A stretch of 43,343 nt of DNA from the IMG/VR virus record IMGVR_UViG_3300048918_000106, positions 1-43,343 of that record; one strand, written 5' to 3'. The translations under genes and the position numbers were made by a program. The notes below the pieces were generated by a model. It made no database searches, was not told the origin of the DNA, and worked only from the letters and a program-made list of their open reading frames with translations. How positions within the stretch are numbered: the stretch's first letter is position 1; each line of letters starts with the position of its first letter. This stretch comes from a virus. Positions 11,528-16,116 of this stretch are shown in pieces.

Positions 11528-13009
11528 ATGAGCATCCCTGTAAGCAACCTTGTGCAGATTAATCCCGCAGTTCTGAGCGGCGGCGGTGCCGCGCTTGCGC
11601 TTGCCGGCTTGATGCTGACCAACTCGACCGCCATCCCGATCAACACCGTTCAAAGCTTCAACAGTCAAGCTGCTGTTGCCGCTTTCTTCGGCGCAGGTTC
11701 AACCGAAGCATCGCTCGCATCAAACTACTTCTCGGGTTACGACAACTCGACTGTTAAACCGGGCAACCTGCTGATGGCGCAGTACCCGAGCACCGCAGTT
11801 GCAGCTTACATGCGCGGCGGCAGCTTGGCGGCCATGACGCTCGCGCAGCTCCAGGCGCTCAACGGCATTCTCACCGTGACGGTTGACGGGGTGCCGAAAA
11901 CGTCGTCTGCGATCAACCTTTCCACGGCAACCAGTTTTTCGGACGCGGCAACGAAGATTCAAGCCGGTTTCACCGCGCCCAACTTCGTCGTCAGCTACGA
12001 CGCGCAGCGTGCGGGCTTCGTGTTCACATCGAACACGACCGGCAACGCGTCGAGTGCAACTGTCGCGTCCGGCACCCTGTCGGCCGGCCTGAACCTGACT
12101 ACCGCAACCGGCGCGGTTGTGTCGCCCGGTGCTGCCGCTACCACGCCGGCCGCCGCGATGGACAACATTGCAACGCTCACGCAGAATTGGGCGGCGTTCA
12201 CCACGACGTTTGAGCCGGTGATTGCCGACAAACTGGCCTTCGCAGCCTGGACGAGCGGCAAGAACAACCGCTTTGCCTACGTCGGCTGGGATACCGACGC
12301 GACCAATGCAACCAACGGCGCGAACGCGGCCGGCTTCGGCGCGCAGGTTGCAACCGCCGGTTACTCGGGCGTCATGCCTATCTACGGCGGCGCGCAGTAT
12401 GCCGCCTTTGTGCTCGGTACAGCAGCATCTATCGACTTCACGCGGCGCAACGGTCGCATCACGTTCGCGTACAAATCCCAATCGGGCCTTGTGGCCAACG
12501 TGACCGACTCGACTGCGGCGGCAAATCTCGCCGCGAACGGCTACAACTTATACGGCCAGTACGCATCACCCGGCAATTCGGCGTCGTTCCTCGCACCCGG
12601 TTCGATTTCAGGCCCGTTCAAGTGGGCTGATACCTACTTCAACGAAATCCAGCTCAGCAGCGCCTTTCAGGCCGCGCTGATTGCGCTGTTGACCGGCACC
12701 CCGTCCATTCCGTACAACCCGGACGGCAAGAACATGGTTGAATCGGCGCTCATCGGCCCGATCAACGCGGCGCTCGACTTCGGCTCGATCCGCGAAAACG
12801 TTGCGCTGTCGGCCGCGCAGGCTGCGCAGGTCAACACCGCCGCCGGCACGCAGATTGATTCCGTGCTGTCGTCGCGCGGCTGGTATCTCCAGGTAAAGGA
12901 CGCGCCGGCCAACGTGCGCGCCGCTCGTGGTTCGTTCCCGCTGACGTTCTGGTACATGGACGGTGGCAGCGTGCACAACTTCAACATGGCATCTATCGCC
13001 ATCCAGTAA
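11528..13009 (+). CDS. Contractile tail sheath protein (DUF3383)
   Basis: 493 aa. DUF3383-family sheath. The start MSIPVSNLVQINPAVLSGGG, a variable Ser/Thr/Ala-rich inserted domain (about 110-210, LTVTVDGVPKTSSAINLSTA), then FVLGTAASIDFTRRNGRITFAYK and a C-terminal handshake-type region (GWYLQVKDAPANVRAARG, FWYMDGGSVHNFNMASIAIQ) follow the family. It polymerises round the tube and contracts on infection. The gene defines the phage as a myovirus. CGGAGCGACAA precedes the ATG. Confidence 0.9.
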   Translation: MSIPVSNLVQINPAVLSGGGAALALAGLMLTNSTAIPINTVQSFNSQAAVAAFFGAGSTEASLASNYFSGYDNSTVKPGNLLMAQYPSTAVAAYMRGGSLAAMTLAQLQALNGILTVTVDGVPKTSSAINLSTATSFSDAATKIQAGFTAPNFVVSYDAQRAGFVFTSNTTGNASSATVASGTLSAGLNLTTATGAVVSPGAAATTPAAAMDNIATLTQNWAAFTTTFEPVIADKLAFAAWTSGKNNRFAYVGWDTDATNATNGANAAGFGAQVATAGYSGVMPIYGGAQYAAFVLGTAASIDFTRRNGRITFAYKSQSGLVANVTDSTAAANLAANGYNLYGQYASPGNSASFLAPGSISGPFKWADTYFNEIQLSSAFQAALIALLTGTPSIPYNPDGKNMVESALIGPINAALDFGSIRENVALSAAQAAQVNTAAGTQIDSVLSSRGWYLQVKDAPANVRAARGSFPLTFWYMDGGSVHNFNMASIAIQ

Positions 13010-13025
13010 AAAGGGACAACCTGAC

Positions 13026-13457
13026 ATGAAAACCTTAACCACAGCCAACAGCTCGCTTTTCCTCCAGATTACCGGGCTGTATCCGATCCCGCAGAAGATC
13101 GAAGGTTTTGCGATGGACGAAGCCTTCGCGACCGACGACGTGACGACCGCCGAAACCCAAATGGGCGTTGATGGCCGGCTGTCGTCCGGCTACACCCCGT
13201 ACCCGGTATCGCTCAAGATCGTGCTTCAAGCGGACTCGCCGTCGATGAGCATTTTCGACAACCTCATCGCCGCGCAGGACGCGGCAAACGAGGTGTACCG
13301 CATCGACGCGTCCGCGCTGCTGCAAGGAACCGGCGACAAGTACGCCTTCATCAAGGGTACGCTTACCAAGTTCACGCCGATGTCTGAATCGAAAAAGATT
13401 CTGCAACCTCGGACGTTTGAATTCGTGTTTGAGAGCAAAACCAAGTCGCCGGTATAA
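13026..13457 (+). CDS. Tail tube protein
   Basis: 143 aa. A beta-rich tube subunit typical of this position: NSSLFLQITGLYPIPQKIEG, ATDDVTTAETQMGVDGRLSSGYTPYPVSLKIVLQ, and a final LQPRTFEFVFESKTKSP strand. It stacks as hexamers inside the sheath. The frame is open from 12963, but the ATG at 13026 lies just after the sheath stop and gives the expected N-terminus. Confidence 0.83.
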   Translation: MKTLTTANSSLFLQITGLYPIPQKIEGFAMDEAFATDDVTTAETQMGVDGRLSSGYTPYPVSLKIVLQADSPSMSIFDNLIAAQDAANEVYRIDASALLQGTGDKYAFIKGTLTKFTPMSESKKILQPRTFEFVFESKTKSPV

Positions 13458-13460
13458 GCC

Positions 13461-13898
13461 ATGCTCAACACGAAAACAATCACCATCCGGGGCGGCCGCG
13501 ATGACGGCAAAATGTTCGTCATCACCGAAATGCCCGCACGTCCGGCTTACCGCTGGGCGCTGCGGGCGCTTTTCGCGCTGATGAACTCGGGCGTTGAAGT
13601 ACCGGAAGACATCCAGGCGGCCGGCATGGCTGCGATTGCGGCGCTCGGCATTAAGGCGCTCGGTAACGCGAGCTTCGCCGCAATGGAGCCGCTTCTCGAT
13701 GAAATGCTGGCGTGTGTCAGTTTCGTCCCCGATCCGTCGAAATCTGACATCAGGTTGAACGACATTGAACGTCACATCGAGGACGCAAAGACCTTCTTCA
13801 CCCTGCAAAAAGAAACCGTGACCCTGCATCTTGCACCTTTTATGCAAGGCGTCGTATCGAATGGGGCTTCGACGCCGCAGATGCCCCACGCGGGCTGA
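13461..13898 (+). CDS. Tail assembly chaperone, short (G-like) form
   Basis: 145 aa if read without a shift. It lies between tube and tape measure, the place of lambda G/GT-type chaperones that coat the tape measure during tail assembly. The first ~115 residues form a helical domain (MLNTKTITIRGGRDDGKMF; MPARPAYRWALRALFALMNSG). After about residue 115 the reading weakens, while the -1 frame becomes protein-like and stays open to 14065 with no start of its own. The longer form is a separate entry. Confidence 0.8.
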   Translation: MLNTKTITIRGGRDDGKMFVITEMPARPAYRWALRALFALMNSGVEVPEDIQAAGMAAIAALGIKALGNASFAAMEPLLDEMLACVSFVPDPSKSDIRLNDIERHIEDAKTFFTLQKETVTLHLAPFMQGVVSNGASTPQMPHAG

Positions 13899-14065
13899 TC
13901 GACTACGCGAACGTGCCGCGCCCCATCGGCGCGGTTGTGTCTCGCGGGCTGGCGTCCCTGCACGAGTTGGACACCGTGTACGGGACGCCGGACCTTTATG
14001 ACATGCTGGAAATTATCACCGTTGATGCCCATAATCAGCGAGTGATGAACAAACCGAAGGTGTGA
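13461..14065 (+). CDS. Tail assembly chaperone, -1 frameshifted (GT-like) form
   Basis: A ribosomal -1 slip would give a 201-aa fusion. The -1 frame has a stop at 13766-13768 and is then open to the TGA at 14063-14065, so the slip lies between 13769 and about 13895. The extension reads FYARRRIEWGFDAADAPRG, then LIDYANVPRPIGAV and LASLHELDTVYGTPDLYDML, a plausible folded domain filling an otherwise empty 170-bp gap before the tape measure. Candidate slip sites are CGCAAAG (13784-13790), GCAAAAA (13805-13811) and ACCTTTT (13835-13841); none is a textbook heptamer. Programmed frameshifting at this position is common in tailed phages; here it is inferred. Confidence 0.68.
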
Positions 14066-14067
14066 GC

Positions 14068-16116
14068 ATGCCCACAATTATTGATTCCCTGCTTGTCACC
14101 CTCGGCGTCGATCCCAAACAGTTTGTCAAGGGTGCGGCGGACGCGAACAAAGCGCAAAAGAGCATCGAGCGGCAGGCGGGGCGAACCGCGCGAGTGCTCA
14201 CCGAGTACGAACGCAAGGTTGCTGACGAGCGCAAAAAATACGCCAGGGAATCCGAAGAACAAGCGAAGCGGATGGCTGAGAATATCCGCGCGGTCCGCAA
14301 CGAGCTGATTGGCTGGCTTGCGGTCCTGACGGCCGGCAAGACGCTGAAAGACTTCTTCGGTGACACGATCAACGAAGCGGCCAAGTTGCACTTCCTGTCG
14401 CAAAACCTGCGGATGAGCACCGAGGATTTGCAGGCGTGGCAGCGCGCGGCAGAACGTGCGGGCGGCTCTAAAGAAGGCATGCTCAACCAACTGCGCAAGT
14501 CGGCCGAGGATATTGCCGCGCTGCGTTCGGGCCTTGGCCCGTCCGATGCGATGCAATGGTTTTTCCGCATGGGTGGCTCGGCGTCGGACCTCAAGGACGG
14601 AAATACCTATTTGCTAGCTCGCGCGCAAATAATCCACGACCTGTTTGCAAAAGACCCGTCGCGCGCGGCACTGATCGCCGCGAACATGGGTATATCGCAA
14701 GATCAGTTCGACCTGATCAAACAGGGGCCGTCTGCAATCCTGGCACTCGTGGACGCACAGAAAAAGAATTCCGCCATCACGGGGCAGGATGCGAGCGCCG
14801 CGCTCGCCCTGCGTAATCGCTGGCTCGACTTCAAAGATTCGCTTCAGGCGACGACGACAAAAATTTTGGTTGCGTCAATCCCGGCAATCGAAGCCTTGGT
14901 TGGCTGGTTGCAGAAGTTGACCCAATGGGTTACTGAAAACAAGGATGAAATTGGCCGCTGGGCCAGCGACGTTGTTGCAAAAATGATTCCGGTGCTGACC
15001 GACATCGGCCGCGCGCTTGCAAATACGGACTGGAAGGCAACCAAGGACGGCATTAAGGAAGTTGGTGCGGCGATCATCGAGATTGCGGACAGTCTGCGTG
15101 AAGTGCTCGACCTTTGGAACAAGTGGACCGGGCGCAACGAGAAGCCGACCGCAGGCGTGAGCAAAGTCGGCCCGGTTCGGCTGGGTAAAAAAGAAGACCT
15201 CAAGACCGACGACGCGCACAATGGGCGCGCGCCGACACGCGAAGCGCCGCAGGCCATCAAACCGGGTTCGTTCTTGGCGAAGGTGAGCGATGGTATCGAA
15301 ATGGCGCTTGCGCGCACGCTTGCGTCGTTTGGCAACAAGCCTGCCGCAGAGTTTGTGCGCGATAAAACCGGCAAGGATGATTACAACGCCGGCCCCGCGC
15401 ACAGTTCCATCGTTGACAAGTTGATCAAGATGGGTTGGACGCGCGAACAAGCGGCCGGTATCACTGCCAGCTTCGACCAGGAAAGCGGACTCAACCCAGC
15501 CGCACGCAATCCGAAGTCGGGCGCGTACGGGTTGGCTCAATGGCTTGGGTCACGGGTTTCTGATTTCAAAAAATGGTCCGGTCGCGATTTAGTCGGGTCG
15601 TCGCTTGATGATCAGCTTGGATTTTTCCAGTACGAAGTGACCAAGGGTAAAGAACGGGCGGCCGGCGATGCATTGCGCGCTGCAAAAACTGCGGCCGAGG
15701 CGGCGCGCATTCACGCTACGATGTACGAGCGCCCCGACGCAAACGAAGCGAACATAGCGCGCCGTCAGTCGCTTGCCGAGGCGATCAATTCGCAAATGCA
15801 GAAACGCGACGCGCCACGCCCTTCCGCACCGCCGGTGGCACCTGACGTTGCCAGTGACAGTAAAACACGCGCTGGCGGCGATTTAGCGACCCTGGCGGGG
15901 CAATTGCGAGCGCTGGACGTTGCGCGGACACCAGCGCTTGCCGCATTGCAGCCGAATGCGAGCCGGTCTGCAAACGTGCAAACTGAGGTTAAAATAGGCC
16001 AATTGGTAATCAACACCAAAGCCACGGATGCGGCCGGTATCGCGCGTGAGCTTCCCGGCGAGCTGGAAAAAGGCGGCTTCGGCTGGGTGACGCAAGCTAA
16101 CACGGGGATTGCATAA
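14068..16116 (+). CDS. Tape measure protein with tail lysozyme domain
   Basis: 682 aa. It sets tail length and is threaded into the cell on infection. The first ~350 residues are helical and coiled-coil-like (DANKAQKSIERQAGRTARVL), with a hydrophobic stretch near 90 (ELIGWLAVLTAGKTL). Residues ~445-560 form a phage tail lysozyme-like domain (VDKLIKMGWTREQAAGITAS, FDQESGLNPAA, GAYGLAQWLGSR), where the Glu of DQESGL is the likely catalytic acid. The C-terminus carries a beta motif (VKIGQLVINTKATDAAGIA) seen in many tape measures. A GTG lies at 14062, but the ATG at 14068 is taken. At 682 aa it predicts a fairly short tail. Confidence 0.88.
   Translation: MPTIIDSLLVTLGVDPKQFVKGAADANKAQKSIERQAGRTARVLTEYERKVADERKKYARESEEQAKRMAENIRAVRNELIGWLAVLTAGKTLKDFFGDTINEAAKLHFLSQNLRMSTEDLQAWQRAAERAGGSKEGMLNQLRKSAEDIAALRSGLGPSDAMQWFFRMGGSASDLKDGNTYLLARAQIIHDLFAKDPSRAALIAANMGISQDQFDLIKQGPSAILALVDAQKKNSAITGQDASAALALRNRWLDFKDSLQATTTKILVASIPAIEALVGWLQKLTQWVTENKDEIGRWASDVVAKMIPVLTDIGRALANTDWKATKDGIKEVGAAIIEIADSLREVLDLWNKWTGRNEKPTAGVSKVGPVRLGKKEDLKTDDAHNGRAPTREAPQAIKPGSFLAKVSDGIEMALARTLASFGNKPAAEFVRDKTGKDDYNAGPAHSSIVDKLIKMGWTREQAAGITASFDQESGLNPAARNPKSGAYGLAQWLGSRVSDFKKWSGRDLVGSSLDDQLGFFQYEVTKGKERAAGDALRAAKTAAEAARIHATMYERPDANEANIARRQSLAEAINSQMQKRDAPRPSAPPVAPDVASDSKTRAGGDLATLAGQLRALDVARTPALAALQPNASRSANVQTEVKIGQLVINTKATDAAGIARELPGELEKGGFGWVTQANTGIA

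Follow-up and report, generated by a model that had tools for sequence, protein, structure and literature searches.

Between the tail tube and tape measure genes of a virus lies a reading frame with no plausible start codon of its own, and the question is how it comes to be translated. The stretch analyzed here, hereafter the window, is 43,343 nucleotides long (positions 1 to 43,343 of IMG/VR record IMGVR_UViG_3300048918_000106). The original prediction, made from the sequence alone, was that this frame is joined to the preceding gene by a probable -1 ribosomal frameshift, giving a tail chaperone fusion.

A Myophage Tail Module with an Overlapping -1 Frame

The window contains a myophage tail module in the order sheath, tube, chaperone, and tape measure (table 1), and the chaperone and its candidate extension sit between the tube and tape measure genes, as expected of a G/GT-type pair. 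The tape measure ATG starts two bases past the stop of the -1 frame. The tape measure protein also contains a Phage_lysozyme2 domain (8e-25) in residues 447–575 (window 15406–15792); given this match, the protein may participate in peptidoglycan cutting during DNA entry.

Relative to the chaperone ORF, no stop interrupts the -1 frame between 13769 and a TGA whose last base is 14065, exactly as predicted, and its translation includes both peptides originally listed, FYARRRIEWGFDAADAPRG and LASLHELDTVYGTPD. The claim that it has no sensible start also holds: its first ATG, GTG, or TTG is the GTG at 13913, this and all later start codons lie inside the conserved domain, and no clear Shine–Dalgarno sequence is found in the 20 bases upstream of them. 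The product of 13769–14065 matches phrog_3976, a family with no function given, at 1e-21 and is found in 28 phage records and hundreds of viral contigs, so the open frame is more than a chance occurrence. However, the Phe codon of ACCTTTT marks the onset of conservation in the -1 frame, and the part of the frame 5' of ~13838 is, on the alignments, open only incidentally. The same product also weakly matches phrog_18181 and phrog_4774 (170–177 aa) at their C-terminal ends; these partial matches suggest longer proteins with the same terminal domain, possibly single-frame fusions. No natural single-frame fusion of the chaperone and the extension is present among the fetched loci.

Table 1. Features of the Tail Module and of the Predicted Frameshift Region, in Window Coordinates
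Feature	Coordinates	Strand	Basis
Tail sheath (DUF3383)	11528..13009	+	PF11863, E 1e-132; phrog_205
Tail tube protein	13026..13457	+	phrog_1964 and PF22764 (E217_Gp32); position after sheath
Tail assembly chaperone, short form, 145 aa, frame 0	13461..13898	+	phrog_1932, E 7e-40
Predicted slip site A_CCU_UUU, core tetramer U_UUU (13838–13841)	13835..13841	+	Aligned NNU_UUY; conservation switch
Predicted C-terminal extension, reached only by a -1 shift; adds 74 aa after Phe127	13838..14065	+	phrog_3976, E 5e-22; no start before 13913; conserved
Spacer AUGCAA, 6 bases, slip site to stem 1	13842..13847	+	Sequence
Stem 1, 5' arm GGCGUCG, predicted stimulatory structure	13848..13854	+	Folding; arm swapping
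Likely pseudoknot stem 2, 5' arm UGGGGC, within stem 1 loop	13862..13867	+	P 0.013 versus shuffles given stem 1
Stem 1, 3' arm CGACGCC	13870..13876	+	Folding
Likely pseudoknot stem 2, 3' arm GCCCCA	13883..13888	+	Shuffles
Tape measure protein	14068..16116	+	phrog_9570 (tail length tape measure), E 9e-60

The Frame Relation in Related Loci

By tblastn, 84 phage records contain the chaperone and 28 contain the downstream part; we also collected 80 viral-contig loci by a profile search and 31 prophage loci in bacterial genomes. Given that loci were gathered via the downstream protein only, they were selected without regard to the frame relation. With a single exception, the more than 100 related loci, whether in phages, viral contigs, or prophages, encode the downstream domain in the -1 frame of the chaperone. 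This arrangement is found in every fetched phage record (Aeromonas, Klebsiella, Pseudomonas, Pantoea, Acetobacter, Stenotrophomonas, Bordetella, and Acinetobacter phages and a Helicobacter prophage), in 30 of the 31 prophage loci, and in the viral-contig loci, including a few script failures read by eye; our slip detection script missed or misplaced L011, L012, L013, L027, and others, which were read or reassigned by hand. The exception, L103 (1550–1978 and 1878–2174), in which the upstream frame has the other phase and LHLDFFF is followed by a longer run of T, is perhaps a decayed or mis-sequenced copy.

Across the phage records the junction falls at the same place, at NNU_UUU, mostly following a Leu-His pair. 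Comparison with relatives, which the original prediction had proposed as a check, therefore supports a tail chaperone fusion via a -1 frameshift, with the downstream domain in the -1 frame and the slip point fixed. We found no earlier report of frameshifting in this phage family in the literature within our reach, outside of which most subscription journals fall.

A Conserved Slip Site

An alignment of 71 non-redundant loci has NNU_UUY at the same place in all 71. The codon preceding the Phe codon ends in U in every one of them, whereas NNU accounts for 33% of the NNY codons farther upstream in these genes, and the Phe codon itself is UUU in 69 loci, as compared with 30% upstream. At precisely this codon, amino-acid conservation passes from frame 0 into frame -1: conserved E, T, L, and H residues precede it in frame 0, conserved F/Y, R, and R residues follow it in frame -1, and the frame 0 tail past it is variable and rich in Ala, Ser, and Thr. 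In 20 of the 71 loci a -1 stop lies at most 18 codons upstream of the slip site (directly before it in L014 and L032), making an earlier shift impossible there. The invariance of NNU_UUY, the conservation switch, and these upstream stops together place the slip site of the window at A_CCU_UUU. Three candidate slip points had been proposed, CGCAAAG (13784–13790), GCAAAAA (13805–13811), and ACCTTTT; all three are present and none is an X_XXY_YYZ heptamer, as stated, but only the third corresponds to the conserved site, and the other two are not conserved.

The 80 distinct loci that include the window can be divided into 28 with X_XXU_UUY, ~29 with U_UUU_UUN one codon later, and ~23, the window among them, with neither (L013 was reassigned by hand in this classification); the U_UUY tetramer is common to all 80. 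Approximately 57 of the 80 loci, in either register, have an X_XXY_YYZ site, at which the tRNAs in both the P and A sites can re-pair with cognate codons, and the A_CCU_UUU of the window does not. The window does have a tetramer of the Z_ZZN type (motifs A_AAG, U_UUY, and C_CCY), with a predicted 7-bp stem beginning six bases downstream. In measurements of all tetramers in E. coli by Sharma and colleagues, A_AAG is the most shift-prone when a pseudoknot is present, followed by U_UUC and U_UUU, whereas U_UUU and other tetramers hardly shift without a stimulator (PMC4066793). The missing X_XXY_YYZ heptamer and the very low shiftiness of unstimulated U_UUU in E. coli count against a frameshift; however, the tetramer at the slip core of the window is known to be shift-prone if followed by a pseudoknot (PMC4066793). 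We assume here that the tRNAs behave as they do in E. coli. The original remark that the mechanism may be unusual is apt insofar as the window lacks a textbook heptamer, but it is weakened by this property of U_UUU and by near viral-contig relatives that have a full C_CCU_UUU or an N_CCU_UUU of the same type. One of these, L017 (59% identity in the extension, same PFM motif), has C_CCU_UUU, which is among the efficient heptamers in E. coli (PMC4066793).

Two other details of this region can be described. The frame 0 stop is fixed at codon +19 past the slip site in the window (13896–13898) and in L017, L018, L020, L021, and L034, as a TGA or TAA inside conserved Leu-Ile codons of the -1 frame. 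In the window, positions 13829–13848 can form a CUUGCA/UGCAAG hairpin with CCUUUUA of the slip site as its loop, which is not seen in near relatives and would be melted once a ribosome occupies the slip site.

Predicted RNA Structure Downstream of the Slip Site

When the 71 loci were folded in 48-base segments at 12-base steps, the mean z was -1.36 ± 0.16 solely for the segment starting right after the slip codon, as compared with -0.45 to +0.19 for the others. The best hairpin beginning 3–10 bases downstream has a mean energy of -9.5 kcal/mol by a simple stacking score, as compared with -1.7 to -3.9 at other offsets, and significant hairpins in the family begin mostly 5–6 bases past the slip codon. 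Because the -1 frame encodes conserved arginines in this region, we swapped 3' arms between loci; own arms pair better than swapped arms across loci (Wilcoxon P 6e-6), and stem 1 of the window (7 bp) is equaled by 1.4% of swapped arms. Among 40 in-frame NNU_UUY sites in 19 window genes, the slip site has by a clear margin the best downstream structure. We observed no link between a weak slip site and a stronger structure among the loci (Mann–Whitney P 0.73), and L017 lacks a comparable stem.

Stems 1 and 2 of the window together form a predicted H-type pseudoknot (P 0.018 versus shuffles; stem 2 given stem 1, P 0.013). The plain minimum free energy (MFE) z of the window's own downstream RNA is not significant (-0.4; -0.3 in the family scan), so the local case is based on the specific stem, spacer, and pseudoknot, and we consider the pseudoknot in the window RNA only likely.

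Alternative Explanations

Many database records present the downstream part as a separate small gene with its own internal start, and in L004, L014, and L015 an ATG in the downstream frame is annotated as the gene start. We judge this arrangement very unlikely: conservation begins at the slip codon, 5' of any start, an ATG, GTG, or TTG occurs within the first 15 codons in only 10 of 69 loci, the downstream frame of L010 has no start codon at all, the window's starts from 13913 onward have no clear Shine–Dalgarno sequence, and a separate gene would leave the invariant U_UUY and the positioned RNA structure unexplained. A shift at one of the two earlier, A-rich sites, CGCAAAG (containing A_AAG) or GCAAAAA (A_AAA), would exploit the most shift-prone tetramer in E. 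coli (PMC4066793) and a -1 frame that in the window is already open from 13769, and CAA_AAG occupies the second place in several of the nearest relatives. However, the residues A-K encoded at the first site are V-L or V-A in neighbors, the second place is lost in L029 and L031, frame 0 rather than frame -1 is conserved from there up to the Phe codon, a -1 stop intervenes between these two points in 14 of 71 loci, and the family folding scan detects no RNA structure after the A-rich sites; this explanation, too, seems to us highly improbable.

Transcriptional slippage on the T run, which would generate mRNAs with altered numbers of U, is compatible with the runs of six or seven T at the site in many relatives, but the window and others have only four. 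A run of four T is too short for efficient polymerase slippage. Given also that the downstream structure lies at a spacing characteristic of ribosomes and so points to translation, we consider slippage by the polymerase exceedingly improbable. The last alternative is a variant that does not exclude our preferred reading, namely a shift at A_CCU_UUU stimulated by the 7-bp hairpin only, without a pseudoknot. MFE folding of 13842–13900 yields stem 1 without stem 2, and the evidence for stem 2 across the family is modest (P < 0.05 in 8 of 57 loci); in the window, however, stem 2 (UGGGGC/GCCCCA) beats nearly all shuffles given stem 1, and the loop lengths fit an H-type pseudoknot. We regard the hairpin-only variant as a serious possibility, if a rather doubtful one.

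Predicted Products and Mechanism

We conclude with high confidence, from sequence comparison, that the locus encodes a tail assembly chaperone pair of the lambda G/GT type made by -1 frameshifting at A_CCU_UUU: the second part overlaps in the -1 frame without a start of its own, the slip site is conserved in relatives, and the N-terminal part belongs to a tail assembly chaperone family and fold (phrog_1932; 2ob9 and 3klu). AlphaFold models built with family alignments have a pLDDT of 90 for the N-terminal chaperone part and 89 for the extension. The chaperone model resembles the HK97 tail assembly chaperone 2ob9 (Z 5.3) and YqbN 3klu (Z 5.1), with a Vibrio PICI-like protein as its best structural match (5ir0, Z 8.1), against a background of ~3 for unrelated structures (next unrelated Z 3.1). 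The match of the window's chaperone to Pfam Phage_TAC_15 is below the cut-off, and 14 of 59 relatives match that family. The extension is modeled as helical, and Foldseek returns no meaningful match for it in the PDB.

Most ribosomes would read the chaperone ORF to its stop and produce the short form. A minority would be stalled at CCU_UUU (13836–13841) by the RNA structure six bases downstream; tRNA-Phe in the A site would re-pair one base back, UUU to UUU, and tRNA-Pro would retain pairing at two of three positions, CCU to ACC. The shifted ribosomes would continue in the -1 frame to 14065, giving a predicted fusion of ~201 aa that shares ~127 aa with the short form, joins HLAPF to YARRRIEWGF at the junction, and has ETVTLHLAPFYAR as its predicted tryptic junction peptide. 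If the two products act as in lambda, the N-terminal part common to both would coat the tape measure protein, and tube subunits would be recruited by the extension. Although the frame relation, the conserved slip site, the conservation switch, the family-wide structure, and the lack of a start codon are read directly from the sequences, the shift itself, its rate, the tRNA that moves, the pseudoknot in the window RNA, and the roles of the two products are inferred. In the part of the family with a bare U_UUY tetramer, which includes the window, we tentatively posit, with a confidence just below even, that tRNA-Phe slips in the A site and that the pseudoknot or stem replaces P-site pairing, such that selection keeps only the tetramer and the structure while the P-site codon drifts; P-site codons among the loci include GGU, GAU, AGU, GCU, CCU, UCU, CAU, and others.

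Relation to Known Systems

The lambda gpG/gpGT proteins have been reviewed together with the tail chaperone frameshift that is conserved among long-tailed phages (PMC5009743). Like G/GT, the locus lies between the tail tube and tape measure genes and is predicted to yield a low-abundance C-terminal extension, and its chaperone fold is related to that of the HK97 chaperone 2ob9; unlike G/GT, the families are phrog_1932 with phrog_3976, the slip core is U_UUY rather than the lambda site, and the window family has a conserved downstream stem or pseudoknot. A chaperone frameshift has been argued for Vandenendeviridae and Andersonviridae (phage Adele), which have an invariant GTTTTT (PMC12846349). 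These phages share with ours contractile tails, a proposed -1 shift, a T-rich site at the 3' end of the short form, and a downstream part annotated as a separate hypothetical gene (PMC12846349), whereas GTTTTT is missing from the window (CCTTTTA) and some relatives, and the downstream RNA structure is a feature of the window family. We are nonetheless cautious, given that the T4-like phage work cited in PMC12846349 proposes, by its title, a route other than frameshifting. In IS elements with Z_ZZN sites, shifting at a U_UUU tetramer likewise depends on a pseudoknot located 3' of it and serves transposase synthesis (PMC4066793) rather than tail assembly.

Acinetobacter phage AP22 (Obolenskvirus), Aeromonas phage vB_AsaM-56 (Popoffvirus), and 4_D05 (Kunmingvirus) have a homologous locus in which the downstream ORF is again in the -1 frame; the U-rich site in these three, unlike that of the window, is a canonical heptamer. 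Their records list two separate genes, a chaperone or hypothetical protein followed by a hypothetical protein. Judged by these comparisons, the locus appears to represent a known type of tail-assembly frameshift in a further phage family, with a slip site weaker than the textbook one.

This reading corrects an annotation error that recurs in Obolenskvirus, Popoffvirus, Kunmingvirus, and many uncultured myophages, in which the conserved hypothetical gene before the tape measure gene would be the tail end of the chaperone. The family also constitutes a natural experiment, in that its sites drift between a canonical heptamer and a bare U_UUY while a structure at a set spacing is mostly kept, and it would allow P-site pairing and the stimulator to be compared directly for what each contributes to -1 frameshifting in bacteria.
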